From Neoarius graeffei (lineage: Eukaryota; Chordata; Actinopteri; Siluriformes; Ariidae): a stretch of 64,000 bases of DNA. Positions 2,982 to 56,200 of this stretch are shown piece by piece. The stretch's first letter is position 1. Each line of letters starts with the position of its first letter. The notes under the pieces are model-generated. The model was not told the DNA's origin. It did not search any database and saw only the letters and a list, made by a program, of their open reading frames with translations. The position numbers and the translations under genes were made by a program. The DNA lies in the NCBI RefSeq assembly GCF_027579695.1, contig NC_083575.1, forward strand, positions 34,487,382 through 34,551,381, written 5' to 3'.

Positions 2982-3237
2982 CAGGGGTGTCAAACCTGAT
3001 CCATAAAGGGCCTTGTGGCTGCAGGTTTTCATTCCAGCCATGCAGCAGCACACCTGACTTGGCTCATTCAATCAACTGAACTGTCTTCACACAGTCAAAT
3101 ACTTGCAGCCACACCCACCCTTGATTAAAGGGTGGGTGTGTCAGTTGATTGAATAAGCCAAATCAGGGTGCTGCTGCATGGCTGGAATGAAAACCTGCAG
3201 CCACACGGCCCTTTATGGATCAGGTTTGACACCCCTG
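2982..3237. mobile_element. Palindromic hAT MITE, 256 bp, perfect 8-bp duplication
   Basis: Ends CAGGGGTGTCAAACCTGATC are inverted repeats and the arms pair over most of the length. The 8-bp target duplication TTCTAAGG (2974-2981, 3238-3245) is intact, so it is young. A sister copy lies at 27583-27838. Confidence 0.95.
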
Positions 3238-3564
3238 TTCTAAGGTCCCCACTTTTATCTGTGTGGGTCCCCCCCGATATGTTTACGCATTTATTTCCGA
3301 ACATATTGATTGTCATTTCTCACAAACCTTTGAAAATGTCTTGTTTGGCTTCTTTTTCTTAATTTACATACCCTTCTTTTAAAACAAAGCAATTCTACAT
3401 TCTTCATCTGATCCTTTTATTTGCAAAATCACATCTCCATGAATCCGTAGCCATTTATCCTGTTCTACAGGGTCGCAGGCAAGCTGGAGCCTATCCCAGC
3501 TGACTATGGGTGAGAGGCGGGGTACACCCTGGACAAGTCGCCAGGTCATCACAAGCCTGACATA

Positions 3565-6363
3565 CAGTGGTGCTTGAAAGTATGTGAACCCTTTAGAATT
3601 TTCTATATTTATGCATAAATATGACCTAAAACATCATCAGATTTTCACACAAGTCCTAAAAGTAGATAAAGAGAACCCAGTTAAACAAATGAGACAAAAA
3701 TATTCTACTTGGTCATTTATTTATTGAGGAAAATGATCCAATATCACATATCTGTGAGTGGCAAAAGTATGTGAACCTCTAGGATTAGCAGTTAATTTGA
3801 AGGTGAAATTAGAGTCAGGTGTTTTCAATCAATGGGATGACAATCAGGTGTGAGTGGGCACCCTGTTTTATTTAAAGAACAGGGATCGATCAAAGTCTGA
3901 TCTTCACAACACATGAAGTGTATCATGGCATGAACAAAGGAGATTTCTGAGGACCTCAGAAAAAGTGTTGTTGATGCTCATCAGGCTGGAAAAGGTTACA
4001 AAACCGTCTCTAAAGAGTTTGGATTCCACCAATCCACAGTCAGACAGATTGTGTACAAATGGAGGAAATGCAAGACCATTGTTACCCTCCCCAGGAGTGG
4101 TCGACCAACAAAGATCACTCCAAGAGCAAGGCGTATAATAGTCGGCGAGGTCACAAAGGACCCCAGGGTAACTCCTAAGCAACTGAAGGCCTCTCTCACA
4201 TTGGCTAATGTTAATGTTCATGAGTCCACCATCAGGAGAACATTGAACAACAATGGTGTGCATGGCAGGGTTGCAAGGAGAAAGCCACTGCTCTCCAAAA
4301 AGAACATTGCTGCTCATCTGCAGTTTGCTAAAGATCACATGGACAGAAGGCTATTGGAAAAATGTTTTGTGGATGGATGAGACCAAAATAGACCAGTTCA
4401 CAGATACGGCAAACCGCAAGGAGTTGTGGGAAAGGTCAAAGGTTAAGGCCTCATAAACGAGAAAAGTAGAGCATGTCAACAATGGCAGAGGCTACAGGCT
4501 CGCTGTGGGGACACTGTTGTGTTGTCGATTGCTACAAAGGACGTCGACTGCTTGAACAGTGGATGCGAGAAGACTGTAGTGTACATTTAAGTGAGTGTAT
4601 ACAGAAAAAATTATGTGAATCCAAGCACACAGTTTAACGCAAAAGTTCGTTTATATCCCGACCTTGTCAGCTGTCAGATTTATGTTAATGGACCCGGTAA
4701 GCTGGTAAATAATATTTATTTTTTTTCTTTACCAAATTCTAACAGAAAACAAGAGCGCCCAAAAGGGAAAACCGAGCCGAGCCGAGCCGCCTCACGGCTG
4801 TAATGCAAATTGCTTTCCTCCTCCGTATACAAGTGCGCTTCCATGGCAGGGAAAAAGAAACTACATTTTGGCGCCTATGTAGCTAGTCCCCTATTTAAAC
4901 AAATAGGAGTCATTCAGGATTCAGCCATGTTTTTGCTCCGTGTTTTTACTCGACCAAAGTTATACAGTATTATGAGCTTTAAATTGCATAAATAAAACCA
5001 TTTGGTGAAACTTTGAAGAAGAGATTGTACTGGTTTAAAGTTTTTACCTAACGTTTTCATGTCGACTCCAATTAATACACTAGTAGAATCGATGACTAGT
5101 TTAGGAGGCCAAAACTTTTTTTTCAATTTTTGACTGTACCAGCCTGAAAAAACTTGCGACAGTCAAATGGAAAAAAAGCAAGCTGGTCATGTTGTACTGG
5201 ACTAATCTATGACTGAGTATAGTAAGTGATACTAGTACTGATACAATAAAAGAGACGACTGTAATCTGGTAGGCAGCACGATTTATATTATTTCTCCGTG
5301 TCAGATGTTGACCTGTCAAAAACTGCAGTGGGCGTGGCAGTATCACCGGGTACATACCTCGATTTTCCTTCGTCTTCCTTGGACGGTACAGGCTGGATTT
5401 TCAAAATATCTGTGGCATATGCAAGCACCCTTAACTCTTCTACCCCCATGGTAGTTGGCAATCCCCGTTCTCTCATATCCATAAGGCGCATTTACTAAGG
5501 TTTGGCTTGTTTGCCGCTATGTTTTCATCTCCGATGAGGCCTCGACCTTTGACCCTGCACATGCGCGGCGATATCTGTGAACTGGTCTATAGAACTTTTT
5601 GGTTTAAATGAGAAGTGTTGTGTTTGGAGAAAGGGAAACACTGCATTCCAGCATAAGAACCTTATCCCATCTGTGAAACATGGTGGTGGTAGTATCGTGG
5701 TTTGGGCCTGTTTTGCTGCATCTGGGCCAGGATGGCTTGACATCATTGATGGAACAATGAATTCTGAATTATACCAGTGAATTCTGAAGGAAAATGTCAG
5801 GACATCTGTCCATGAACTGAATCTCAAGAGAAGGTGGGTCATGCAGCAAGACAACGACCCTAAGCACACAAGTCGTTCTACCAAAGAATGGTTAAAGAAG
5901 AATAAAGTTAATGTTTTGGAATGGCCAAGTCAAAGTCCTGACCTTAATCCAATTGAAATGTTGTGGAAGGACCTGAAGCGAGCAGTTGATGTGAGGAAAC
6001 CCACCAACATCCCAGAGTTGAAGCTGTTCTGTACGGAGGAATGGGCTAAAATTCCTCCAAGCCAGTGTGCAGGACTGATCAACAGTTACTGGAAACGTTT
6101 AGTTGCAGTTATTGCTGCACAAGGAGGTCACACCAGATACTGAAAGCAAAGGTTCACATACTTTTGCCACTCACAGATATGTAATATTGGATCATTTTCC
6201 TCAATAAAGAAATGACCAAGTATAATATTTTTGTCTCATTTGTTTAACTGGGTTCTCTTTATCTACTTTTAGGACTTGTGTGAAAATCTGATGTTGTTTT
6301 AGGTCATATTTATGCAGAAATATAGAAAATTCTAAAGGGTTCACAAACTTTCAAGCACCACTG
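3565..6363 (+). mobile_element. Tc1-like transposon carrying a second transposon
   Basis: Ends CAGTGGTGCTTGAAAGT are flanked by TA at 3563-3564 and 6364-6365. The transposase runs from ATG 3925 and is interrupted at the WMDETK block by a 1.2-kb insertion (4390-5588). It resumes with [24 protein letters not shown] and [10 protein letters not shown] and ends at 6143. Damage: TGA as codon 3 (3931-3933), a short deletion near 4340 and a stop near 5778. Same family as 47617-49227. Confidence 0.93.
4390..5588. mobile_element. ISL2EU-like DNA transposon remnant inside Tc1
   Basis: The terminal inverted repeat AGACCAGTTCACAGATA is at both ends with a dinucleotide AT duplication (4388-4389, 5589-5590). 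Removing it restores the Tc1 reading ATAGAACTTTTTGG. Inside, about 4480-4620 (plus) reads CCVVDCYKGRRLLEQW, resembling a decayed THAP zinc finger. A minus-strand ORF at 5288-5491 is unassigned. Confidence 0.75.
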
Positions 6364-6577
6364 TACAGACAAACAACCATTCACAGTCAATTTAGAGCCA
6401 CCAATTAGCCTAACCTGCATGTCTTTGGACTGTGGGGGAAACCGGAGCACCTGGAGGAAACCCACACAGACACCAGGAGAACATGCACACAGAAAGGCCC
6501 TCGCTGGCCGCTGGGCTCAAAACCAGGACCTTCTTGCTGTGAGGCGACAGTGCTAACCACTACACCACTGTGCCGCT

Positions 6578-15500: not shown

Positions 15501-18500
15501 ATGGTAAGGGTAGTATCTCACTGGGCTGCGACAGCCTGCGACTAGTTGGAGACACAACAATTGCGATAAAATATGTGAATTGGCGACAATTTTCACTTAG
15601 AATCGCACTGAATTGATATTTTATTGCAATTGTTGTGTCTCCAACTAGTCGCAGGCTGTCGCAGCCCAGTGAGATCCACTCGCACTTCCTGTCTCACAGA
15701 AACTGACTTGAGAAGGGTTCGTGACGGCTTTGCGACGCATTTGCGGCTATTTTGAGATTTTGTCGTAGGAATTTTTTTGAACATGTTCAAAATTTCAGCA
15801 ACGAAGGAGCGGCACTTTGCGACTCATGCGAGGAAATTGAGAAGCCCCGTGAATGTTTCAAGACACTTCTGAAACTCTCTCGCGAATGACGTTTGCAATT
15901 TGTCGCAAGCTGTCGCAGCCCAGTGAGATACATGTGTTTAAAATTATGACAATGACCAAGTGAACCATGACAACTTGTCATGGCATGTGACAATAAAAAT
16001 CAAAGTTATTAGATTAAGAATATTTCCACTACGCTAGAAAGCACTAGAAAAGACCTTTAAAATGATGCATGAACCAACTATCTATGATAAATATTAAAGT
16101 TATGAATTTTTTAATTTTGAAAAATCAAGCCCTTAATTACACACTAAAACAATAGAACTGTGACCGATATCAGCAACTTCCACCTGTAATTGACCATAAC
16201 TTGCTTAATTTTTATCCTACTTCAAAAAGTAAGGCATCAGCTGAAAGCTTATGATAAGGGGAACAAGAAAATAACAAAATCACATAAATAACTGCAAGTA
16301 AACTTTATTTATTCATTCAAGAGACTGTCTAAGATGAATCAGTTGTTTTATCGTGAATTATAAATGAAACAATGGATTCATAAAGCTCTCGTCCTCCCAA
16401 GTTAGCGGTAGAAATCAGTCATGGCCGCCTGTCCGCTAGCAGCACTTGGACACATTAGTTTTCTAATGTTAGCAAAACCATATGCTAGTCTTTTGATTAT
16501 GATGAAACTTGGCAATAATCAAGAAAAATACCTAAGCTATCACTTCTATACATTTAGAAAATACAACCTACTCACCATTGATGGTAGCAGAAGTCGGATG
16601 ATGAGGGTTGACTTCATAAACAATTTTTTTCCACTTCCCATTGTGACATCGCGAAAATTCGAGAACCACGAGGTTACTGAGAATACTGACTACATCAGTA
16701 TTTGTGTACTGAGGAAATCGAAACAGGAATCGATAACGTAGAAAGTAAAAACCAAAACGTCACGCATGAATAGCCGCTGCAGGCTGCTAGCGGTAGGCAG
16801 AAACAATACAAGCGCTATGCAGATCATCGTAGTGTAACTACGACAAGAGAACGCTGATTTTATAGCAAAATTCTATCAGCACGAAATAAAATTCTTCCAG
16901 GATATCATCGAGAAAGCTTTTGAATCTCATCTGAGATAAAATGATGACTGCAAACATGAGCTGTTTTGGTTTTAGCCTCTGTTAGATCAGCGCTGCTGAT
17001 GTTGTTCAGCCGTGTTCGTCTCCTCTCCGTACTGAGCCTCGGAGTTTCCTCGCCCTCTTTCCAAATCACGGACGGAATTCTAAAAAATCGGAACGTGCCA
17101 CGGTCACAAGTACTGATGTGACCACAACCATATACAGCACAAAGATATGGCAGAGCTAAAAGAATGCTTCAAGCAGTGGAAAAATAAAGAGTTGCACACG
17201 TGTGACTGTTTTGTATGGAATGTCACTTGACCCCGCATTTGTATCTCCACCAACATGGCCGACATCCAGGTTTCTTTTTTGCTTTTGCGTCACTTGCAAG
17301 TCAAGGATTGTCTATAATCCTAAGCAGGTATTCAGCAATAGGAATTCAACACCACCTGAAATGATTTCTTTGTACCATTTAGACTGCCTGCTGGAGATAT
17401 ACATGTTCCCCTCCAGCTGTGGAGACTCTAGCGCTCTCGCCAGCTTTTGTGCTTTTTTTTTTTTTTTTTTTTAATTATTATTTACTTTTATTTTTTTTAA
17501 ACAGTACTGCTTCTTTTTTCACCCTTGTGTTCTGTTTGCTAGGCACAAAATAGTACAGTACTTGCTTGGCTTATTGCAGTGGGTTAAACCTCAGATCTTC
17601 CGTCATCTCAGATTAATTTATAAAATGTCAAGATTCGTCAATCGTTTCACATTCCCTGGTTGTTCGTTTGTGTACCATGAGATGTTGTGGCATTGTATCG
17701 TTCAGTTATAACATTAAGATCTAGCTCAATTCCTCTCTGGAAAAGTTCCACATCTGTTAAACCTCGCTGCTTTTCTACAGTTAATAAATAGGGCGATAAC
17801 GTATTTTTATCATAAGGCTTTGTTTGGGTGCACTCATAACCATTCCTGCAGACTTCTCATGTTCAACAGGAGCATCATCACTGATGCTACTCAACCAGGG
17901 TACAGAGAGTTCTCTACCCAGATGTGTAATTGTCTGATGGGAAAAGTGCTATGAGAGATGAGCGAAGGTGGGATGACCACTCCGTAGTGGTTCACGTCCA
18001 AACTTAAAAATACATCGACTGACTAGCTAACGTCTTTACTTGTGGATTGTATGGTTGCAGGCTCTGGAAGACGCTTTCCTAGCTATAGACAGCCACATTA
18101 CCTCCGAGGAGGTTATCAAGGAGCTTGTTCAGATTGCTGGCCGCCCACAAGAGGAGGCAGCACCAGAAAAAGTAGCAGACGAAGATGATGGTGAGAAGCG
18201 TTTTGATAAATTGCCTGACTGAATGCAGCATTAAAGCTTGGGCTATAGTTCATTGTGTTTTTGTATCTTCTCTTGCTTTAGTGGATAATGAGGAAACGGC
18301 TCTTCTGCACGAAGAGGCCACAATGACAATTGAGGAGCTGCTTGTCCGCTATGGGCAGAACCTGAATAAATTGGCCAAAAAGCCTGGACAGGACGCCCCC
18401 AAAGAGCTGGGAGACAGAGCGAACATCCATGCAGATAAAGGGATCAACGGTGAGACGGAATGCGGGGCATCTGAAATGGACAGCAATGGAAAAGCAAAGT

Positions 18501-27500: not shown

Positions 27501-29799
27501 TTCATGAGGTCGTCACCTGGAATGCTTTTCAATTAACAGGTGTGCCTCAAGTTAATTGGTGCAATTTCTTGATGCCTTAATGCAGGGGTGTCAAACCTGA
27601 TCCATAAAGGGCCTTGTGGCTGCAGGTTTTCATTCCAGCCATGCAGCAGCACACCTGACTTGGCTCATTCAATCAACTGAACTGTCTTCACACAGTCAAA
27701 TACTTGCAGCCACACCCACCCTTGATTAAAAGGTGGGTGTGTCAGTTGATTGAATAAGCCAAATCAGGGTGCTGCTGCATGGCTGGAATGAAAACCTGCA
27801 GCCACACGGCCCTTTATGGATCAGGTTTGACACCCCTGCCTTAATGCATTTGAGATCAAATAGTAAACACTAAACATACAGTAAATAGCCCTATTCCACA
27901 ACTGTAGTAATCCATATTATGTCAAAAGAGAAACCTCGATCATTAAGATATGAAGTGTGTGGGGTTTTTTTTTAATTAAAAAAAAAACAACAAAATCATT
28001 ATTGAATTGAACTATTGAAGGCATGTCCAAATATTTGACTGGTACTGTATGCAAGAGATCCATTTTGTGGATTAAAGTGAGTTACAGCAGCCAAGTTAGC
28101 TTTTAGGGTTTCTGAAATTTGATTGAATGCCTGCCATGATTGCAACCTGATAAAACTGCACCAGTCCCCTTCCCTCTCTAGTGCTGTAAATGGAGAACAG
28201 CTTCCACTTCAGTCCTTCCCTTAAGATTTTTTTTTTTAAAGTATTAAGCATGGGGTCAAACGCAAGGTCAGCACTTCTTGTTGGCATCCACAGTGGACAC
28301 CAGATATCCTGGCAGTGCCATCACGTTAATGGGCCATATTGCAAGCATATTCCAGCCTCTGTGTTTGTGCTATTCAGGATGTCATAACCTGTCGCTATTA
28401 TACCTGTTTATTACAGGAATGTAATGAGTAGCCAGGAGGTTGTGGACTTTGTAAATGAGAGATTGAAAACAGAAGGAAATGAAGCCAAGCCACTGTCTGC
28501 TGTTATTGAAGAGGTGCGTATGACTTGCTTGATTGTACTATTGTGCTTTATTCTCAAAGCAGTAAAGAAAATACAGTAGTTGGAAGAGCTAATTATGGAA
28601 TAAGAGAAATCAAATCAGGTTTTTTTTTTTTTTTTTTTTTAAGCTGTTAGTTATTTGCAACTTTTCTATTTATCACTCGAGGTACAGGACTGCTGGTCAG
28701 TTAGACCCCGTCCACACGTAGCCGGGTATCTGCTAAATCGAAGATATTTTTCTACGTTTTGGCCTGTCATCCACATGAAAACACATCAAAAACGAATATT
28801 TAAAAAAAACTCCGGGCAAAGTGAAGCTTTTTGAAAACTCTGTGTATGCCTTTTCGTGTAGACAGAGATAACCGGAGTTTTGCGTTTTAGAACATCACAA
28901 TCTGCGCCAAAAAAACGACAACAAATCTGCCCTGACGTCAAACGTGCGACCTTTGTTTACTGCAGAAGCCAGATTAAGCATGGACAAAGAGTAATGGATC
29001 GGAGTAGTGCCTTGAAAGCGTTAATTATTGTGCAGGTGCTATTTACATGTTTAATTTTAGAAGCCCAACTACTGACAAGATTCCCAATCAACGTTTTCTT
29101 GCGTCTTTTGAAGTTTATACTCCAAAATTGTGTTTAGAAGCAATTCTGTCTCCGAGTCTGTCTAGACGAACGAGCTTGGCGCCATGTTTTATGTTTAGGC
29201 GGAAGTGACGCCAACAGAGGGCTATTCTGATGTGATTAGGGGGTAGGATTTGGGGAAATAATGCCATCTACAGGTTTGGAATGCTTATGAATGTGATTGA
29301 AAACGCAGATGTTCGGTTATGTGTGGAAGGGATTTTTTTTCGAAGACGAGGTGGTGTGGATGAAACATTTTTATAAACGGAGGGGGGGAAATGTTCAGTT
29401 TTAAAAATACCTGGCTACGTGTGTACATGGCCTTAATCTTATTTAGAACAAGTCTATATGATTTGTTGATGCTTTTAATCAATCAATACAACCAAGAAAC
29501 TTTTGTTTATCCAATCCTACTTGGTTGAAAACACTTGCTTGGGAATGTTTTTCCACGGCACGTATCCAAAGCTAGACATGAACTGATGGAAATGTTTGTT
29601 TGTATTCCAGCTGCTTGACCACTGCTTGGCACCAGACACATCTGGCGATGGAACAGGCTGTGACAACATGACTTGTATGATCGTCACATTCAGCCCCCAC
29701 ACCGGTAACAACATGGCTGAGAACGCCAAGAAACGCAAGCTGGAGGAGCAGGTGTCCGAGGAGAACGGCAACGACAGCAAAAAATCCAAAACAGAATAA
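9515..29799 (+). CDS. ppm1g: Protein phosphatase PPM1G (PP2C-gamma), complete, 10 exons
   Basis: Metal-dependent Ser/Thr phosphatase of the PP2C family. The family member is nuclear and acts on splicing factors and histones. Exons: 9515-9625, 10012-10081, 10181-10266, 18061-18190, 18282-18739, 19569-19688, 24912-25146, 25242-25371, 28417-28513, 29611-29799. All junctions are GT-AG and in phase, giving 541 codons against about 546 in mammals. The start has a good Kozak context (A at -3, G at +4) and begins MGAYLSKP, a possible myristoylation site. PP2C motifs in order: GWRVSMED (Arg33, Glu37, Asp38), VYDGHGG (about residues 55-61), ANAGDSR, VACDGIW and GCDNMTC, so the metal-binding Asp residues are all present. 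The family's hallmark acidic insertion, rich in Asp and Glu, is encoded by exons 5-6 (about residues 260-325). The tail has basic nuclear-localisation-like stretches KKRKLEEQ and KKSKTE. Intron 4 is only 91 bp, while introns 3, 6 and 8 are swollen by transposons. No disabling change was seen. Confidence 0.97.
9711..9894 (+). repeat. Three tandem 60-64 bp units in ppm1g intron 1
   Basis: Three consecutive copies begin with TGTGCTTTRGGAAGAAGG at 9711, 9771 and 9831. The first two are 60 bp; the third is 64 bp because GATT is repeated once more. Near-identity shows a recent local duplication. Confidence 0.95.
10355..12340. mobile_element. ISL2EU-like element(s), head-to-head palindrome, in ppm1g intron 3
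   Basis: The outer ends AGACCCCTTTCACTGACGTC and its counterpart at 12340 are flanked by AT. They share an inverted repeat of about 80 bp that includes CACCCGAAACCGGAAGTAAA. Around the centre 11365-11366 (CTCT-AT-AGAG) two similar halves are mirrored. Each half carries the N-terminus of a YqaJ-type accessory protein (minus 10895-11251, plus 11516-11758; shared [12 protein letters not shown] and [20 protein letters not shown]). A minus-strand ORF at 11955-12215 is a THAP C2CH finger ([20 protein letters not shown] ... ICSDHF). THAP plus YqaJ is the ISL2EU signature. No full transposase remains. Confidence 0.8.
12506..12616. repeat. Compound (TA)n(CA)n(CG)n(TG)n microsatellite
   Basis: About 60 bp of TA are followed by CA, CG and TG runs. 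The purine/pyrimidine alternation is Z-DNA-prone. Confidence 0.97.
12617..12836 (-). mobile_element. Partial SINE, type B (short 3' module)
   Basis: Head and core remain, while the 3' module TCTGCATTTAACCCACCTGA marks the second subtype seen also at 34340, 38920, 44078 and 61682. The middle is shortened by deletion. Confidence 0.8.
12898..14324 (-). mobile_element. V-SINE split by a TIR element
   Basis: The tail fragment at 12898-12947 and the head and core at about 14104-14324 are in one orientation. Part of the middle is lost and the element at about 12963-14099 lies between. Confidence 0.7.
12963..14099. mobile_element. TIR element with integrase-type HTH fragment and TTTTCTCGAGATC repeats
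   Basis: The ends resemble CTGTGTTCACACT and its complement CTAGTGTGGACAGG, with several GGTATAACTGT/CGGTACGAAA words near both ends. A minus ORF at 13180-13377 ([18 protein letters not shown] ... [12 protein letters not shown]) looks like the N-terminal helix-turn-helix of integrase-like transposases (Ginger/IS3EU type). From about 13470 to 13655 a degenerate repeat of about 35 bp around TTTTGTTTTCTCGAGATC appears, and its inverted copy lies at 13153-13200. Two nested elements are likely. The family assignment is tentative. Confidence 0.55.
14403..14657 (-). mobile_element. hAT-like MITE, sister of 59590-59882
   Basis: Ends TGCTCAACCGGGGTGCCGTC and AAGTTTGAGAAATGCTG match the copy at 59590 in inverse orientation, including CATGATGCATCA-like and AATTTTAATT interior words. 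Confidence 0.8.
14658..15108 (-). mobile_element. Non-LTR retrotransposon fragment (L2/CR1/Rex1 group), RT C-terminal end
   Basis: The minus strand reads [54 protein letters not shown] and [12 protein letters not shown], the conserved region after the RT domain. It is cut at 15108 by the ISL2EU-like element and has one small deletion near SRLDGSV. Confidence 0.85.
15109..17313. mobile_element. ISL2EU-like element in ppm1g intron 3
   Basis: Termini AGATGACTTGCAA and AGACAATCCTTGACTTGC (inverted) are flanked by AT (15107-15108, 17314-17315). GTCCGCCATGATGGTGG near one end mirrors ACCAACATGGCCGAC near the other. Plus-strand fragments at about 15240-15390 encode a decayed YqaJ-type N-terminus ([36 protein letters not shown]). 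A MITE is inserted at 15513-15930. The ORF at 16421-16741 is unassigned. Confidence 0.72.
15513..15930. mobile_element. MITE with GTATCTCACTGGGCTGCGAC ends
   Basis: The terminal inverted repeat GTATCTCACTGGGCTGCGAC is at both ends, and a third, internal copy at about 15655-15676 makes 15513-15676 a hairpin by itself. Non-coding. Confidence 0.85.
18786..19355. mobile_element. MITE, short copy, in ppm1g intron 5
   Basis: Starts near CCCTGTCCACACGTAGCCGG and ends in the inverted ACCCGGCTACGTGTGTACATGG. It is about 90% like the copy in intron 9 (28706-29440) but lacks about 160 bp of that copy's interior. Confidence 0.85.
21442..22727. mobile_element. ISL2EU-like element inside the hAT
   Basis: Termini AGAGGATTTCGACGTGACG and AGAGGTTTTCGACCCACGTG (inverted) are flanked by AT (21440-21441, 22728-22729). 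A minus ORF at 22194-22586 carries the YqaJ-protein N-terminus ([20 protein letters not shown] ... [11 protein letters not shown]). A hairpin with a GC-rich minisatellite fills 21496-21943. Confidence 0.78.
21496..21943. repeat. Long hairpin (about 120-bp arms) enclosing a 33-bp GC-rich minisatellite
   Basis: The arms 21496-21615 and 21823-21943 are near-perfect inverted copies (e.g. GTTTACGTTCAGTCATTTGG and its complement). The loop has five units of 33 bp containing CGAGCGAGCGCGCTCGCTAG then CTCCCAGCCTGCC, with GCTCCC at 21661, 21694, 21727, 21760 and 21793. Confidence 0.95.
25447..25974. mobile_element. Tc1-derived MITE in ppm1g intron 8
   Basis: Inverted ends CACTACCGTTCAAAAGTTTG are flanked by TA (25445-25446, 25975-25976). 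The 528-bp interior has no transposase. Confidence 0.93.
26100..26654. mobile_element. MITE with CCCTGTGTCTGAAATCG ends
   Basis: The inverted termini CCCTGTGTCTGAAATCGC and CCCCGTGTCCGAAATCGC are followed on each side by repeats of ACTATATAG. The flanks TAT and TAG suggest a 2-3 bp duplication (Harbinger-like), not certain. Confidence 0.75.
26754..27469. mobile_element. TIR element with AGGGGTGTTCACAC ends
   Basis: Termini AGGGGTGTTCACACGGC and AAGGGGTGTTCACACAGC (inverted) enclose repeated CACCGGTG-like words. Non-coding. T-rich short flanks suggest a 3-bp target, Harbinger-like. Confidence 0.75.
27583..27838. mobile_element. Palindromic hAT MITE, second 256-bp copy
   Basis: Same length as 2982-3237 and almost the same sequence. 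Perfect 8-bp duplication CCTTAATG (27575-27582, 27839-27846). Confidence 0.95.
28706..29440. mobile_element. MITE, long copy, in ppm1g intron 9
   Basis: Homologue of 18786-19355 with extra sequence at about 28983-29110 and 29148-29245. Ends CCGTCCACACGTAGCCGG and CCTGGCTACGTGTGTACATG. Confidence 0.85.
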
Positions 29800-31092: not shown

Positions 31093-31468
31093 CATTTCAT
31101 CTCATTATCTCTAGCCGCTTTATCCTGTCCTACAGGGTCACAGGCAAGCTGGAGCCTATCCCAGCTGACTACGGGCGAAAGGCGGGGTACACCCTGGACA
31201 AGTCGCCAGGTCATCACAGGGCTGACACATAGACGCAGACAACCATTCACACTCACATTCACACCTACGCTCAATTTAGAGTCACCAGTTAACCTAACCT
31301 GCATGTCTTTGGACTGTGGGAGAAACCGGAGCACCCGGAGGAAACCCACGCGGACACGGGGAGAACATGCAAACTCCACACAGAAAGGCCCTCGCCGGAC
31401 ACGGGGCTCGAACCCGGACCTTCTTGCTGTGAGGCGACAGCACTAACCACTACACCACCGTGCTGCCC
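31093..31468 (-). mobile_element. V-SINE, near full length
   Basis: Complete head (TACACCACCGTGCTGCC at right) and tail (TCATCTCATTATC at left). Confidence 0.95.
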
Positions 31469-31515
31469 TCACATGATCATATGAATCCATATTAACAGCT
31501 AAAACACTCTTCTGG

Positions 31516-31895
31516 GGGCGGCACGGTGGTGTAGTGGTTAGCGCTGTCGCCTCACAGCAAGAAGGTCCAGGTTCGAGCCCCGTGGCCGGCGAGGGCCTTT
31601 CTGTGTGGAGTTTGCATGTTCTCCCCGTGTCCGCGTGGGTTTCCTCCGGGTGCTCCGGTTTCCCCCACAGTCCAAAGACATGCAGGTTAGGTTAACTGGT
31701 GACTCTAAATTGACCGTAGGTGTGAATGTGAGTGTGAATGGTTGTCTGTGTCTATGTGTCAGCCCTGTGATGAGATGACCTGGCGACTTGTCCAGGGTGT
31801 ACCCCGCCTTTCGCCCGTAGTCAGCTGGGATAGGCTCCAGCTTGCCTGCGACCCTGTAGGACAGGATAAAGCGGCTACAGATGATGAGATGAGAC
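31516..31895 (+). mobile_element. V-SINE, near full length
   Basis: Head-to-head with the preceding copy, 48 bp apart, so both can pair as a long inverted repeat. Confidence 0.95.
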
Positions 31896-44691: not shown

Positions 44692-45010
44692 TCAGTAGTA
44701 GAGCGCATACTGACTTGCTGCATCTCTGTCTGGTCAGGAGCCTGCAGGGCCTCAGACTGGAAGTCCCTGCAGAGGGTGGTGAAGACAGCGGAGAAAATCA
44801 TCGGGACTTCACTTCCTCCGATACAGGATATTGCAGAAAAATGCTGCCTGACCAGGGCTTGCAACATCAACAGAGACACCTCCCACCCCTACTATGGATT
44901 GTTCTCGCTGCTGGTTTCTGGAAAGAGGCTATGCAGCCTCTAGAGTAGAACAGCCAGGTTCTACAACAGCTTTTTCCCACATTCCATAAGACTGTTGAAC
45001 CGAATTAATC
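44692..45010 (+). mobile_element. L2-type LINE fragment (end of ORF2)
   Basis: Reads [53 protein letters not shown]-like sequence and then a stop, followed by FYNSFFPHSIRLLN. Same family as the minus-strand copy at 50730-51368. Confidence 0.88.
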
Positions 45011-45159
45011 CCACCACCACCACCACCACCTCCACCTAGGCAATATATATTCAGGCAATACACTTTATATTGTACATAGGATTTTATCCACAGTTTTCTT
45101 TTATATATATATATTTATTTATTTATATGTATATCTTCTTTCTTCTTCTTTTGGCTGCT

Positions 45160-46322
45160 CCCAATTAGGGGTCGCCACAGCGTATCTTTCGTCTCCATTG
45201 CTCCCTGTCTTCCGCATCCTTCTCTACCACACCTGCCACTTTCATGTCCTCTCTCACCACATCCATGTATCTCCTCTTTGGCCTTCCTCGTTTCCGTTTG
45301 CCTGGCAGCTCCATCCTCAACATTCTCCTTCCATGATGCTCTGCATGTCTTCTCAGGATGTGACCATACCATCTCAGTCTCATCTCTCTTAGCTTAATTC
45401 CTAAGCTCTCCACATGTGCTGTCCCTCTGATGTGCTTGTTCCTTATCCTGTCCAACCTCGTCACGCCCATCGCAAACCTTAACATCCTCAACTCCGCCAC
45501 CTCCAACTTTGCCTCCTGTCTCTTCGTTAAGGGTACGATTTCCAATCCATACATCACAGCTGGTCTCACTACTGTCTTATACATCTTACCTTTCACTTTT
45601 GCTGGGACTTTCCTATCACAAATGACTCCCGAAATCCTTCTCCAACTGCTCCACCCTGCCTGCACTCTCTTTCTCACCTCACCATCGCAGCCCCCATTTT
45701 CCTGCGCAGTTGACCCCAGGTACTTGAATTCACCAACTTTTTTTACGTCTACTCCTCGCATCTTCACTACACTCTCATCCCCATTCTCATTGATGCACAT
45801 GTATTCTGTTTTGCTACTGCTCACCTTCATTCCTCTTCGTTCCAATGCATACCTCCATCTCTCCAAACCCAACTCAACCTCCTTTCTACTTTCACCACAT
45901 CTCACATCATCCGCAAACATCATGTTCCATGGTGACTCTTGCCTCACTTCGTCCGTCAAGCTATCCATCACTATGGCAAACAAGAAAGGACTCAAAGCAG
46001 ATCCTTGATGGAGTCCCACCTTCACCTTGAACCATTCAGTCATTCCAACTGCACACCTCAATGCTGTTTCACTGTTCTGATACATGTCTTGCACTGCTCT
46101 GATATACTTCTCATTCACTCCGCACTTTCTCATACAATACCAGAACTCATCTCTCGGCACTCTATTGTATGCCTTCTCCAGTTCTACAAACACAATGTAG
46201 CTTTCTCTGGCCTTCCCTGTACTTCTCCATTAACATTCTTAAAGCAAAAATTGTATCCGACGTGCTCTTCCTTGGCATAAACCCATACTGCTGTTCACAG
46301 ATTGCTACCTCTCTTCTCATAT
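45160..46322 (-). mobile_element. RTE-clade LINE, 5'-truncated, mostly open RT end
   Basis: The minus ORF 45165-46193 (342 codons) carries RT blocks [39 protein letters not shown] and MMFADD, then [26 protein letters not shown] and RKIRCGDP. One residue pair after FADD is lost compared with the copy at 49443, and a frame change separates the block QYGFMPRKSTSDTIFALR (about 46200-46310). The 3' end GGGAGCAGCCAAAAGAAGAAG is the RTE tail. Confidence 0.92.
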
Positions 46323-47217: not shown

Positions 47218-50200
47218 ATGAATGAGGCAGAAGGACTGCGATTCAGGAAGCTCAATCGAGCTCAGATATTAACAGATGAAGCTCATGAACCCCAAAACAA
47301 GAGCACGAGGTGAGCAGGTTACTAGCTCTGCTATTACAGTCATTTGTTTTTCTTTGTCTTAAGGTGGCTCTAATACCCCAAAGGTGATTAGAATTATTTG
47401 TGTTTACATGTACAACTTGGACACATACACTGATCAGCCATAACATTATGACATTACAGTGGCACCTCTCAAGGGGTGGGATAGATTAGGCAGCAAGACA
47501 ACAGTCAGTTCTCAAAGTTGATGTGTTGAAAGCAGTAAAAATGGGCAAGTGTAAGGATCTGAGTGACTTGCCAAATTGTGATGGCTAGATGACTGGGTCT
47601 GAGCGTCTCCAAATTACAGTGGTGCTTGAAAGTTTGTGAACCCTTTAGAATTTTCGATAGTTCTGCATAAATATCACTGAAAACATCATCAGATTTTCAC
47701 AGAAGTCCTAAAAGTAGATAAAGAGAACCCAGTTAAACAAATGAGACAAAAATATTATACTTGGTCATTTATTTATTGAGGAAAAATGATCCAATATTAC
47801 ATATCTGTGAGTGGCAAAAGTATGTGAACCTCTAGGATTAGCAGTTAATTTGAAGGTGAAATTAGAATCAGGTGTTTTCAATCAATGGGATGACAATCAG
47901 GTGTGAGTGGGCACCCTGTTTTATTTAAAGAACAGGGATCTATCAAAGTCTGATCTTCACAACACACATTTGTGGAAGTGTATCATGGCATGAACAAAGG
48001 AGATTTCTGAGGACCTCAGAAAAAGCATTGTTGATGATCATCAGGCTGGAAAAGGTTACAAAACCATCTCTAAAGAGTTTGGACTCCACCAATCCACAGT
48101 CAGACAGATTGTGTACAAATGGAGGAAATTCAAGACCATTGTTACCCTCCCCAGGAGTGGTCGACCAACAAAGATCACTCCAAGAGCAAGGTGTGTAATA
48201 GTCAGTGAGGTCACAAAGGACCCCAGGGTAACTTCTAAGCAACTGAAGGCCTCTCTCACATTGGCTAATGTTAATGTTCATGAGTCCACCATCAGGAGAA
48301 CACTGAACAACAATGGTGTGCATGACAGGGTTGCAAGGAGAAAGCCACTGCTCTCCAAAAAGAACATTGCTGCTCATCTGCAGTTTGCTAAAGATCACGT
48401 GGACAAGCCAGAAGGCTGTTGGAAATATGTTTTGTGGATGGATGAGACCAAAATAGAACTTTTTGGTTTAAATGAGAAGCATTATGTTTGGAGAAAGGAA
48501 AACACTGCATTCCAGCATAAGAACCTTATCCCATCTGTGAAACATGGTGGTGGTAGTATCATGGTTTGGGCCTGTTTTGCTGCATCTGGGCCAGGACAGC
48601 TTGCCATCATTGATGGAACAATGAATTCTGAATTATACCAGCGAATTCTAAAGGAAAATGTCAGGACATCTGTCCATGAACTGAATCTCAAGAGAAGGTG
48701 GGTCATGCAGCAAGACAACGACCCTAAGCACACAAGTCGTTCTACCAAAGAATGGGTAAAGAAGAATAAAGTTAATGTTTTGGAATGGCCAAGTCAAAGT
48801 CCTGACCTTAATCCAATCGAAATGTTGTGGAAGGACCTGAAGCAAGCAGTTCATGTGAGGAAACCCACCAACATCCCAGAGTTGAAGCTGTTCTGTACGG
48901 AGGAATGGGCTAAAATTCCTCCAAGCCAGTGTGCAGGACTGATCAACAGTTATCGCAAATGTTTAGTTGCAGTTATTGCTGCACAAGGGGGTCACACCAG
49001 ATACTGAAAGCAAAGGTTCACATACTTTTGCCACTCACAGATATTTAATATTGGATCATTTTCCTCAATAAATAAATGACCAAGTATAATATTTTTGTCT
49101 CATTTGTTTAACTGGGTTCTCTTTATCTACTTTTAGGACTTGTGTGAAAATCTGATGATGTTTTAGGTCATATTTATGCAGAAATATAGAAAATTCTAAA
49201 GGGTTCACAAACTTTCAAGCACCACTGTAGACTTGGACAACCTTTATTGTCATTCATTATGCAACAAGTGTAATGAATGACAATAAAGGTTGTCCAAGTC
49301 TAATTTGGAGATGCAGGTGTGCAGTTGGAACAACTGAATGGTTCAAGGTGAAGGTGGGACTCCATCAAGGATCTGCTTTGAGTCCTTTCTTGTTTGCCAT
49401 AGTGATGGATAGCTTGATGGACGAAGTGACACAAGAGTCACCATGGAACATGATGTTTGCGGATGATATTGTGATGTGTGGTGAAAGTAGAAAGGAGGTT
49501 GAGTTGGGTTTGGAGAGACAGAGGTATGCATTGGAACGAAGAGGAATGAAGGTGAGCAGTAGCAAAACAGAATACATGTGCATCAATGAGAATGGGGATG
49601 AGAGTGTAGTGAAGATGCAAGGAGTAGACGTAAAAAAAAGTTGGTGAATTCAAATACCTGGGGTCAACTGTGCAGGAAAATGGGGGCTGCGATGGTGAGG
49701 TGAGAAAGAGAGCACAGGCAGGGTGGAGCAGTTGGAGAAGGATTTCGGGAGTCATTTGTGATAGGAAAGTCCCAGCAAAAGTGAAAGGTAAGATGTATAA
49801 GACAGTAGTGAGACCAGCTGTGATGTATGGATTGGAGACCATACCCTTAACGAAGAGACAGGAGGCAAAGTTGGAGGTGGCGGAGTTGAGGATGTTAAGG
49901 TTTACGATGGGAGTGACGAGGTTGGACAGGATAAGGAACGAGCACATCAGAGGGACAGCACATGTGGAGAGCTTGGGAATGAAGCTAAGAGAGATGAGAC
50001 TGAGATGGTATGGGCACATCTTGATAAGAGATGCAGAGCATGTTGGAAGGAGAATGTTGAGGATGGAGCTGCCAGGCAAACGGAAACGAGAAAGGCCAAA
50101 GAGGAGATAGATGGATGTGGTGAGAGAGGACATGAAAGTGGCAGGTGTGGCAGAGAAGGATGCGGAAGACAGAGAGCAATGGAGACGAAAGATACGCTGT

Positions 50201-53200
50201 GGCGACCCCTAATCGGGAGCAGCCAGAAGAAGAAGATGATTATGCAACAAGTGTAAATAGAATGAAATTTTATTGCAATTTGGGCGGCACGGTGGTGTAG
50301 TGGTTAGCGTTGTCCTGGGTCCTGGGTTCAAGCCCCGGGGCCGGCAAGGGCCTTTCTGTGCGGAGTTTGCATGTTCTCCCCGTGTCCGCGTGGGTTTCCT
50401 CCGGGTGTTCCGGTTTCCCCCACAGTCCAAAGACATGCAGGTTAGGTTAACTGGTGACTCTAAATTGAGCGTAGGTGTGAATGTGAGTGTGAATGGTTGT
50501 CTGTGTCTATGTGTCAGCCCTGTGATGACCTGGCGACTTGTCCAGGGTGTACCCCACCTTTCGCCCGTAGTCAGCTGGGATAGGCTCCAGCTTGCCTGCG
50601 ACCCTGTAGAAGGATAAAGCGGCTAGAGATGATGAGATGAGATTGCAATTTGGTTCAGCAGTGAATTAAATAAAATTAAATTATGCAGCAGCAAAAATAT
50701 TATAAAGTGATCTGTGGAATTAGGAATGTTCAAGTTATAAATAGAAGTTTGGATTTGGAGTTCAGCAGTCTGGTGACCTGGGGGAAAAAGCTGTTACAGA
50801 ACCTGGTGGTCCTGCACCAAATGCCGTGGAACGTCTTTCCAGAGGCCAGGAGGGAGAACGGTTCATAATGAAGGTGTGAGGGGTCACTGATGATGTTTCT
50901 GGCTCGAGACATGTAGCGCCTTGTTGCAATGTCCTGAATGGAGGGAAGAGAAGTCCCAATGATTTTCTCTGCTGTCCTCACCACTCTCCTCACATTCTTC
51001 CAGTCAGAGGCACTGCAGCCTCCAGACCACACAGAGATGCAGCTGGTTAGAACACTCTCTGTGGTGCTTCTGTAGAATGTAGTGAGGATGGGCAGGGGCA
51101 GGTGGGTTCTCCTCATCCTACGCAGGAAGTGCAGACGCTGCTGTGACTTCTTGACCAGGGATGCAGTGTTCACAGACCAGGTGAAGTTGTCTGTGATGTG
51201 CACCTGTAGGAACTTGGTGCTATTGACCATCTCCACAGCCGTGTTGTTGATGAGAAGTGGAGCGTCGCTGGGTTGGTTTTTCCTGAAGTCAACAATGATC
51301 TCTTTAGTTTTGTCCACGTTCAGGATCAGGTTGTTTTCCCTGCACCAGCCCACCAGCTGCTCCACCACCTCTCTCTATATAAAATAGCACACCTTGTGGT
51401 TTGTTCCTGGTATGCAGTGGTTAGTACTGACCAAAAGTGTTCCAAGGAAGGTGAACCAGCGACAGGGTCATGGGTATCAAAGGCTCATTGATTCGCATGT
51501 GGCACGAAGGCTAGGTCATATGTTCCAATCCCACAGAAGAGTTACTGTAGCACAAACTGCTGAAAAAGTTCATGCTGACTAAAACAGAAGGCTGTCTTTT
51601 GGTAGGTACTAACCACTGCATTACCAGGAACACTCTACAAGATGCGCCATTTTGGAGAGGCTCGTACCCAGGCTTCTCGCCATTACAATTTGGCCCTTGT
51701 CAAAATCGTTCAGATCCTTCCTTACGCTTGCCGATTTTTCCTGCTTCCAGCACATTAACTTTGAGAACTGACTGTTCTCTTGCTGCCTAATATATCCCAA
51801 CCCTTGACAGGTGCCATTGTAATGAGATCATCAATGTGAGTCACTTCACCTCTCAGTAGTCATAATGTTATGGCTGATCAGTGTATAGGTACATGAATTT
51901 GTAGAAAGAGAAGGAATAAAACATTCAGCATCTGCATTTAGTCCCTGTATGTGCTTATTATTGTACAGGTGCATTGCAGTTAAACCCTGCATTTATTTAT
52001 ACACAATATACAACGGTTTCGCATCATACAGCTTCAGAAACAAAGGGGTGTCAAGCTGTTTTGTATGAAACACCCTGTTTTTTTTTTTTTTGCTGCATCT
52101 ACCATGATTAATTCAGTACATAGCACTTACTGCTGAAAATCTTCTTCACATGGTCTTCTATGGGAGATTTTGGAGCAACATGTTAACTCACTCCACCACC
52201 ATCACTATCACACATGCAAATTGAGGAAATATCTCGAGAAGCTCTGCTAAAGGCATGTTGAAGCTGTTCTGGGAGCTCATGATCGCGCCCAAGTCTTTGC
52301 TAGGACATCTGATTGTGTTGTTTTCAATCTAGGTTATATATCGCATTATCTGTTATTATGTATCGTATATATTTCAGCACGTACAGTGGGAAGGTGTTCC
52401 GGGTCACTCTGCTGTCTCTGACTGTGTTCCTGATTCTCCCAATCCTGGTGGTCACTTTTCTCCTGGAGTCCCCCATTCAGCCAGAAGCGTTCAGGTAGTC
52501 TTTCTTTCTCTTTCTTTCTTTATAGATATACTTACATACATACAATCCCGATTCCAAAAAAGTTGGGACAAAGTACAAATTGTAAATAAAAACGGAATGC
52601 AATGATGTGGAAGTTTCAAAATTCCATATTTTATTCAGAATAGAACATAGATGACACAAATGTTTAAACTGAGAAAATGTATAATTTGAAGAGAAAAATT
52701 AGGTGATTTTAAATTTCATGACAACAACACATCTCAAAAAAGTTGGGACAAGGCCATGTTTCCCACTGTGAGACATCCCCTTTTCTCTTTACAACAGTCT
52801 GTAAACGTCTGGGGACTGAGGAGACAAGTTGCTCAAGTTTAGGGATAGGAATGTTAACCCATTCTTGTCTAATGTAGGATTCTAGTTGCTCAACTGTCTT
52901 GGGTCTTTTTTGTCGTATCTTCCGTTTTATGATGCGCCAAATGTTTTCTATGGGTGAAAGATCTGGACTGCAGGCAGGCTAGTTCAGTACCCGGACCCTT
53001 CTTCTACGCAGCCATGATGCTGTAATTGATGCAGTATGTGGTTTGGCATCATCATGTTGGAAAATACAAGGTCTTCCCTGAAAGAGACGTCGTCTGGATG
53101 GGAACATATGTTGCTCTAGAACCTGGATATACCTTTCAGCATTGATGGTGTCTTTCCAGATGTGTAAGCCGCCCATGCCACACGCACTAATGCAACCCCA

Positions 53201-56200
53201 TACCATCAGAGATGCAGGCTTCTGAACTGAGCGCTGATAACAACTTGGGTCGTCCTTCTCCTCTTTAGTCCGAATGACACGGCGTCCCTGATTTCCATAA
53301 AGAACTTCAAATTTTGATTCGTCTGACCGCAGAACAGTTTTCCACTTTGCCACAGTCCATTTTAAATGAGCCTTGGCCCAGAGAAGACGTCTGCGCTTCT
53401 GGATCATGTTTAGATACGGCTTCTTCTTTGAACTATAGAGTTTTAGCTGGCAACGGCGGATGGCACGGTGAATTGTGTTCACAGATAATGTTCTCTGGAA
53501 ATATTCCTGAGCTCATTTTGTGATTTCCAATACAGAAGCATGCCTGTATGTGATGCAGTGCCGTCTAAGGGCCCGAAGATCACGGGCACCCAGTATGGTT
53601 TTCCAGCCTTGACCCTTACGCACAGAGATTCTTCCAGATTCTCTGAATCCTTTGATGATATTATGCACTGTAGATGATGATATGTTCAAACTCTTTGCAA
53701 TTTTACACTGTCGAACTCCTTTCTGATATTGCTCCACTATTTGTCGGCGCAGAATTAGGGGGATTGGTGATCCTCTTCCCATCTTTACTTCTGAGAGCTG
53801 CTGCCACTCCAAGATGCTCTTTTTATACCCAGTCATGTTAATGACCTATTGCCAATTGACCTAATGAGTTGCAATTTGGTCCTCCAGCTATTCCTTTTTT
53901 GTACCTTTTAACTTTTCCAGCCTCTTATTGCCCCTGTCCCAACTTTTTTGAGATGTGTTGCTGTTATGAAATTTCAAATGAGCCAATATTTGGCATGAAA
54001 TTTCAAAATGTCTCACTTTCGACATTTGATATGTTGTCTATGTTCTATTGTGAATACAATATCAGTTTTTGAGATTTGTAAATTATTGCATTCTGTTTTT
54101 ATTTACAATTTGTACTTTGTCCCAACTTTTTTGGAATCGGGGTTGTACATGCATACTGTTCTGTCCACGATTATTAGCACCCCTCTTGCGCTTCTCGTCT
54201 TCAGCTCACCCTACAGGTTTTCAGTGGGTTTCAGCTCAGGGGACTGAGATGGCCACATGGCAGAAACTTGATTCTGTGGTCAGCTAGATCAAATGATGAC
54301 CCAGTTTTAATTTCCTGGCAGAGGCAGCCAGATTTTGATTTAAAATGTCCTGGTATTTCATGGAGTCTATGATGCCATGAACCGTAACAAGGTCTCCAGG
54401 GCCTTTGGAGGAAAAACAGCCCCCAAAAAAACCCATCACAGAACTTCCAGCATATTTGACAGTTGGGATTGGGTTCTTTTCATTATAGCTGTCTTTCTTT
54501 TTACGCCAAACCCACCTTGAGTGTTTCTTGCCAGAAATCTCCATTTTTGTTACATCAGACCAAAGAACACGGTTCCAGTCAAAGTTGTTGTAACCTTTTG
54601 CAAACTCCAGACACTTACATTTGTGGTTAACTGCCAGAAAAGGCTTTTTTTTCTGGAATACCTTCCAAATAATCTATTGGCATGGAGGTGGCGTCTGCTG
54701 GTGGTTTTGGAGACCTGGAAACCCCAAGATTTTATTTTTTCTTGTAATTCACCAACCGTGATCCTTAGGGATATATATATTTTTTTGCCTCTCTTACCCT
54801 CCTCCTCACTGTACATGGGGGCAAAATAAACTCTCTGGTCCTCTTCCAGGCAAGTTTGTAACAGTTCCAGTTGGTGTTCACTTTTTATTATTGTCCCACC
54901 AGTAGAAATAGACATTTTCATTCGAGTAGCTTTTTTATTTTTATGACCATTTCCTGACTTATGAAGGTGAATATGCTTCTCCCTCATTTGGTTTGGGTGT
55001 TCTTTCATCTTCCCCATGTTGATGGATGACTAAGGGAATTTGGCCTCTGTGTCACCTCATATTTGTTCCCCAGTTAATCAGGAAGTCATGGATTGCAGCT
55101 TGAAAGTTCCCACACACTCCAATCAACTCAAAAATGTCCAATTTAAATGGGAAACATGGTTCAGTTATATTTGTGTTCACTATAATTTCCAGGGGTGCCA
55201 ATAATCATGGCAGGCACCGTACATACATGTACATGCAACTTTGGAAAATGGTGGTCACCATTCAATGTGGCCTCTTAGTTTTGTTTTTCCCCCCATAGCT
55301 GTATATACACCAATCATCCATAACATTTTGACAGGTGAAGTGAATTACATTGATTATGTTGTTACAATGGCAACTGTCAAGGGGTGAGATATATTAAGCA
55401 GCAAGAGAACGGTCAGTTCTTGAAGTTGATGTGTTGGAAGCAGGAAAAATGGGCAAGTGTAAGGATCTGAGCGATTTTGACGAGGGCCAAATTATGATGG
55501 CTTGATGACTAGGTCTAAGCACCTCCAAAATGACATATCTTGTGGGGTGTTCCCAGTATGCAGTGGTTAGTACCTACCAAAAGAATCCAAGGACGGTGAA
55601 GAGATGGGACCAGGATGCACTATGGGAAGAAATCAAGCCAGTAGAGGCAGTGTGATGCTCTTGTCAATGTTCTGCCAGGAAACATTGGGTCCTGGCATTC
55701 ATGTGGATGTTAATTTGATACATACTACCTACCTAAATATTGGTGCAGCCCAAATACACCCCTTCATGCTAACAGTTTTCCCTAACGGCAGTGAACTCTT
55801 TCAGCACAATGCCCTGGCACACTGCAGAAATAGTTCAGGAATGGTCTGAGGACCACGACAAAGATGTTAACTTGGACTCCGAATTCCCCAGATCTCAATT
55901 CGAACGAGCATCTGTGGGATGTACTGGACAAACAAGTCCAGTCCATGGAGGCCCCATCTCACAACTTGCACACCTTCAGAGGTCTTGTAGAGACCATTCC
56001 TCAATAGGTCAGAACTGTTTTGGCATCACAAGGGGGATCTACACAATATTAGGCAGGTTGTTTTAATGTTGTTTGTATATTTTTGGCTTTGTGTTGTTTT
56101 GGAGGAAGCATGTACTGTCCTTCCTGGACAATACTTGTCAAATGGTAGGCAATTGGTAAGAGTGGGAGATTATTGTCAAGTGAACAAATTGAGGATCACT

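Follow-up and report, generated by a model that had tools for sequence, protein, structure and literature searches.

An intriguing feature of this locus in Neoarius graeffei is that a 5'-truncated RTE-like LINE is preceded by an inverted copy of the flank into which it inserted. We regard this scar as the aberrant 5' junction of the LINE insertion, probably made by fold-back self-priming of the overhang at the target. The copied template was the locus itself without the Tc1-like transposon that now interrupts it. The features that bear on this reading are listed below; the window referred to throughout is the whole stretch of DNA analysed, 64,000 nucleotides in length.

47428 to 47614, plus strand: left part of the outer, older Tc1-like element, preceded by TA at 47426-47427 (placed by alignment; 47603-47614 is also outer left arm)
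47603 to 47616, plus strand: the 14 nt of the left hairpin arm farthest from the loop, split off by Tc1 and ending in its TA target (placed by inverted-repeat pairing)
47617 to 49227, plus strand: inner, younger Tc1-like transposon with terminal inverted repeats
49228 to 49259, plus strand: portion of the left hairpin arm next to the loop, made of antisense sequence from the 3' end of a Rex1-like LINE (placed by inverted-repeat pairing)
49256 to 49273, plus strand: left copy of the 18-bp target-site duplication (TSD), an exact match to 50239-50256, holding the 11-nt loop (49260-49270)
49271 to 49314, plus strand: right hairpin arm, an inverted copy of the left flank, with the pre-Tc1 empty site at TA 49301-49302
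49315 to 50238, plus strand: body of the 5'-truncated RTE-like LINE, comprising the C-terminal part of the reverse transcriptase and the tail GAAGAAGAAGATG, 95.9% identical to a second copy
50239 to 50256, plus strand: right copy of the 18-bp TSD, an exact match to the left copy
50257 to 51379, minus strand: rest of the antisense Rex1-like LINE that was the target of the RTE-like insertion (placed as a repeat copy; the edge at 51379 is approximate)
about 50283 to 50641: SINE-like repeat within the Rex1-like LINE, with an 11-bp duplication, ATTGCAATTTG, at 50272-50282 and 50642-50652
51380 to 51883, minus strand: right part of the outer Tc1-like element, followed by TA at 51884-51885 (placed by alignment)

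Geometry of the hairpin and its register with the LINE

Removal of the inner Tc1-like element (47617-49227, 1611 bp) joins 47603-47616 to 49230-49259, and this composite arm pairs with 49271-49314. The arms are 44 nt long and, read outward from the 11-nt loop, comprise 41 perfect pairs, one mismatch and two further matches, after which the pairing stops. With Tc1 left in place the hairpin is seen as perfect 32-nt arms (49228-49259 and 49271-49302) around an 11-nt spacer, together with a separate 14-nt pair (47603-47616 and 49301-49314) that matches at 93%. A preliminary description of the locus had placed the inverted segment at the coordinates that this pairing re-derives, and had counted the 11 bases of the loop correctly; its arms of about 42 bp are lengthened here to 44 nt. 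At the single mismatch, G stands in the left flank, C at the opposite end of the outer Tc1-like element, and A both in the copy of that element near 55 kb and in the inverted arm, a distribution that mildly favours A as the presumptive ancestral base.

Within the 401-bp joined region the longest perfect arm is 41 nt, compared with a maximum of 12 and a mean of 7.8 in 100 dinucleotide shuffles, and a chance palindrome was rejected against that maximum. Palindrome length alone is insufficient, as closely spaced inverted repeats are not rare in the window: 119 such pairs are present, and eight of the 25 longest precede this hairpin when Tc1 is left in place. Many among these 25 are AT runs. The weight of the case lies in the register of the hairpin with the TSD, the LINE edge and the Tc1 TA, rather than in the palindrome by itself. 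Other long, close inverted repeats in the window are found at 31211-31773 (266-nt arms), 27572-27849 (81 nt) and 2982-3237 (70 nt), and a near-perfect hairpin at 15515-15675 (60-nt arms, 98%, 41-nt spacer) is possibly another fold-back scar or else a palindromic MITE. An exact search for the 35-base junction pattern gave no match in viral_contigs, a result of little weight given that the collection is not aimed at animal DNA.

The right arm begins with the closing bases of the left TSD copy, its first three positions (49271-49273) being the terminal TAA of the duplication, and these pair with the duplication's own TTA at 49257-49259; the inner left arm (49228-49259) includes the first 4 bases of the duplication. 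The arm ends at 49314, and from 49315 onward the sequence aligns over 922 bp, at 95.9% identity, with 46058-45141, part of a second RTE-like copy. Upstream of the aligned part this second copy continues with LINE sequence unlike the arm, indicating that 49274-49314 does not belong to the RTE-like LINE. Along its length the arm runs in order through three segments of this same locus, namely the start of the TSD, the Rex1-like 3' end and the outer Tc1-like flank, so that an inverted duplication of target flank lies between the TSD and the LINE body. Because both edges of the copy coincide with edges of the insertion, the comparison supports the view, put forward in the preliminary description, that the inverted piece would have been made during LINE insertion, starting at the left TSD end and stopping where LINE homology begins.

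The 18-bp TSD, which the preliminary description does not mention, occurs nowhere else in the window, even when three mismatches are allowed. Its two copies are identical through the terminal GTGTAA and diverge at the very next base (TGAATGA and ATAGAAT, respectively), and the edge of the duplication is uncertain by a few bases, such that the LINE tail could end in GATG or in GATGAT. The RTE-like body gives a Pfam match to RVT_1 (E=2.3e-13) in one of three frames and starts inside the reverse transcriptase. Pfam gives only RVT_1, and assignment to the RTE clade, made also in the preliminary description, is presumed from repeat style. Rex3 proper was considered and rejected: the present element is similar in style and has 13 nt between the presumed stop TAA and GAAGAAGAAGATG, with a single GATG, whereas the Rex3 tail set out in passages of PMC6274825 consists of the stop, 3 nt, (GAA)2 and (GATG)n with n of 8-17.

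Formation of the inverted copy

We infer that target-primed reverse transcription began here when the LINE endonuclease nicked the bottom strand, and that cleavage of the top strand 18 nt away would have produced the 3' overhang ATTATGCAACAAGTGTAA. A LINE target, after second-strand cleavage, carries a 3' overhang as long as the duplication. Before it was joined to the cDNA, this overhang would have folded back, with its terminal TAA pairing to the TTA that starts 14 nt earlier around an 11-nt loop, and the top strand would then be the priming strand. Extension of the folded end by 41 nt would have copied the flank backwards and displaced the complementary strand; the candidate polymerases are Pol theta and Pol delta of the host and the LINE's own reverse transcriptase. 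The new end and the 3' end of the truncated LINE cDNA would have been united without microhomology, after which the hairpin would have been copied into duplex DNA. At some later time a Tc1-like element would have inserted at the TA of the left arm, interrupting that arm and leaving the empty site in the right one.

A candidate for the primer that this scheme calls for is in place, since the TTA 14 nt before the terminal TAA offers 3 bp and leaves an 11-nt loop, and copying that started from the TAA/TTA pairing would give the observed arm without further assumption. At the far junction, where the arm meets the LINE, comparison with the second LINE copy reveals no shared bases (0 bp of microhomology), as expected of direct joining. 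The primer is nevertheless weak: no fold was predicted for the naked 18-nt overhang (0.0 kcal/mol, DNA parameters), and a polymerase would therefore have to trap the 3-bp pairing. TTA also occurs at -27 and -44, making the chosen pairing one of three within the 78 nt examined. In passages of PMC11292364, two terminal base pairs are enough for purified human Pol theta to extend a stem-loop. Fold-back inverted insertions at yeast breaks, as presented in parts of PMC11724301, are mostly ~5-34 bp and reach ~150 bp, and their closing junctions share 0-5 bp; they were Pol delta-dependent and were primed from an imperfect inverted microhomology of 10 bp around a 41-nt loop, no close match in length to the 3-bp primer here.

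The same product could come from a template jump by the first-strand cDNA, in which the reverse transcriptase leaves the RNA and copies the bottom strand of the left flank towards the nick, the new cDNA end TTA finally annealing to the TAA at the end of the top-strand overhang. Such a jump yields an identical final sequence, including the same 3 bp at the near end, and LINE reverse transcriptases, according to passages of PMC6895275, can copy DNA, displace strands and switch from one template to another in the absence of homology. The jump must begin, however, inside duplex DNA, at a point some 40 nt from the nick where 0 bp are shared, and with the bottom nick placed between GATG and ATTATG the T that follows TAA would be without a template left of the nick, unless the edge of the TSD is shifted. 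We consider the cDNA jump unlikely, and less likely than fold-back priming. The preliminary description had attributed the inverted segment to copying of the flank by template switching; the copying of the flank holds, and as to mechanism, switching is possible and fold-back priming takes fewer steps.

Quasi-palindrome template switches in replication and inversions from break repair are known in general, and a palindrome as such does not date itself, which would allow the hairpin to have arisen by either route after the RTE-like insertion and before that of Tc1. A later event of this kind is rendered quite improbable by the coincidence of both copy edges with edges of the insertion, one with the TSD end and the other with the start of the truncated LINE body.

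Nested elements, the empty site and the order of insertion

The outer Tc1-like element spans approximately 47428-51883 with TA on both sides. Its ends can be aligned both to each other and to a further copy near 55.3-55.6 kb: 47452-47613 is 81% identical to 51824-51651 in inverted orientation, and 47445-47613 is 82% identical to 55353-55529. Inside it lies the antisense Rex1-like LINE, the 3' end of which, when read across the TSD, was the target of the RTE-like insertion; the preliminary description does not mention this target either. Its segment 50760-51043 is 74% identical to 45000-44717. The name Rex1-like is one that we assume from repeat style; Pfam gives only PF09004, in one of three frames, and for the second Rex1-like remnant no match was obtained in the two frames searched. 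Six of the eight frames in this Pfam batch, which covered the Tc1 and Rex1-like frames, were without a match. Within 44717-46322 the second RTE-like copy, ending near 45137, also adjoins an antisense Rex1-like remnant, the match to which runs from 45000, and the two adjacencies may be coincidence or reflect a preference for AT-rich 3' ends. The SINE-like repeat within the Rex1-like LINE starts GGCGGCACGGTGG and has many copies in the window.

The inner element ends in CAGTGGTG and CACCACTG, with TA at 47615-47616 and 49228-49229. Pfam matches to HTH_SB, HTH_Tnp_Tc3_2 and DDE_3 occur in one of its three read-through frames, so that the TA duplication, terminal inverted repeats and Tc1-type DDE transposase of the Tc1/mariner group are all present. 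The transposase frame at 47985-49007 is almost open, with 341 codons including the final stop and one internal stop near its start. The window holds a second Tc1 copy (3563-4392 and 5589-6365), whose two ends lie at the same TA; it is split by other sequence between 4392 and 5589, and a SINE-like fragment (3427-3562) directly abuts its left edge. The stretch 52383-52497 reads like an exon of a membrane protein and may resemble vertebrate APMAP, in which case the nested transposons would sit in an intron.

Beyond TA 49301-49302 the right arm crosses into sequence from the far side of Tc1, which 11 of its 12 bases match. The same 12 bases match the adjacent Tc1 end at only 5 positions, and the next-best 12-mer on the plus strand of 47300-49259 scores 9. 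As the arm past the TA matches the far side of Tc1 and not its near end, the template was this locus without Tc1. The claim of the preliminary description that the inverted segment spans the Tc1 target without any Tc1 is thereby borne out, alignment to the joined flanks giving 44-nt arms through the TA. Its proposed order, with the RTE-like LINE inserted first and Tc1 later, is likewise supported by the emptiness of the copied template at the TA, in this one sequence. From the same single sequence we read the full order as the outer Tc1-like element, then the Rex1-like LINE, then the RTE-like LINE with its scar, and last the inner Tc1. Divergence was set aside as a means of dating: the single mismatch among the 44 nt of the arms and the ~96% likeness of the Tc1 terminal repeats give estimates that overlap within error, and the Tc1 repeats were possibly non-identical at insertion, which makes the comparison uninformative.

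The palindrome proves a Tc1-free template strand only, not Tc1-free chromosomes in the population. Tc1 might accordingly be older on another haplotype, with the RTE-like LINE and its scar arising on a Tc1-free haplotype and recombination later joining the two. This would place the edge of a crossover or conversion tract within the ~44 bp that separate the Tc1 end from the insertion point (49230-49273), and we judge it highly improbable; it concerns the order alone and is compatible with the fold-back mechanism. That the hairpin is merely a stem-loop which the Rex1-like 3' end forms naturally, or an inverse Rex1 copy, is suggested by the ~32 of 44 arm nucleotides that are Rex1-like 3'-end sequence, and can be set aside almost entirely, for the arm continues into the outer Tc1-like flank of this very locus (11 of 12 bases) and not into Rex1.

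Comparison with other LINE junctions and meaning

This kind of junction is rare and already described, and the distinction of the present case is its unusually clean internal time-stamp. Among human somatic L1 insertions, passages of PMC10191854 report three (0.3%) with a short foldback inversion of the upstream target flank and one (0.1%) with foldback and an internal inversion, the extra synthesis amounting to ~52-220 bp. The junction described here resembles the L1 foldback inversion presented there as process C, in having an inverted target-flank duplication directly upstream of the LINE 5' end. It differs from those human L1 cases, found in somatic clones, in that the LINE is a 5'-truncated RTE-like element in a fish genome with 41 nt of new copy, and in that the junction is ordered by a later Tc1.

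Zebrafish LINE 5' ends carry extra nucleotides derived from the flank, according to sections of PMC4245944 and PMC4760211. The likeness to these 5' EX of L2 lies in extra bases between TSD and LINE that are often flank-derived, with annealing at an exposed 3' overhang; they are described in those sections as several extra nucleotides, and no inverted copy of 41 nt like the present one is described there. The Pol theta and yeast fold-backs (in the relevant parts of PMC11292364 and PMC11724301) are similar in that a 3' end copies its own strand and is then end-joined, the substrate being an oligonucleotide or a nuclease break in those systems and a LINE target with 3 bp in this one.

L1 twin priming likewise uses the second-strand 3' overhang as a primer, but it inverts LINE sequence, whereas the target flank is inverted here (compared with the accounts in passages of PMC4245944 and PMC12350158). 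Twin priming was rejected for this junction, the inverted piece being target flank and not sequence of the inserting LINE. For human genomes, passages of PMC12350158 tally 1,047 L1 5' ends with inversions, along with 311 inverted duplications, and those passages do not describe fold-back of the flank at LINE junctions. In the portions of the open-licence literature searched, we found no foldback junction outside L1 that was ordered by a nested transposon.

The locus thus provides a fold-back LINE junction outside L1, in an assembled genome, with junctions readable to a few bases. It agrees with models that have the second-strand 3' overhang exposed ahead of its joining to the cDNA, and thanks to the later Tc1 a single sequence gives the order of events; the case is neat and introduces no new principle. 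A much broader and doubtful proposition is that the RTE-like insertions of this genome are routinely closed by overhang fold-back synthesis, possibly by the LINE reverse transcriptase, with their junctions serving as genome-wide fossil records. If that were true, fold-back fossils of local DNA would order nested insertions without population data.
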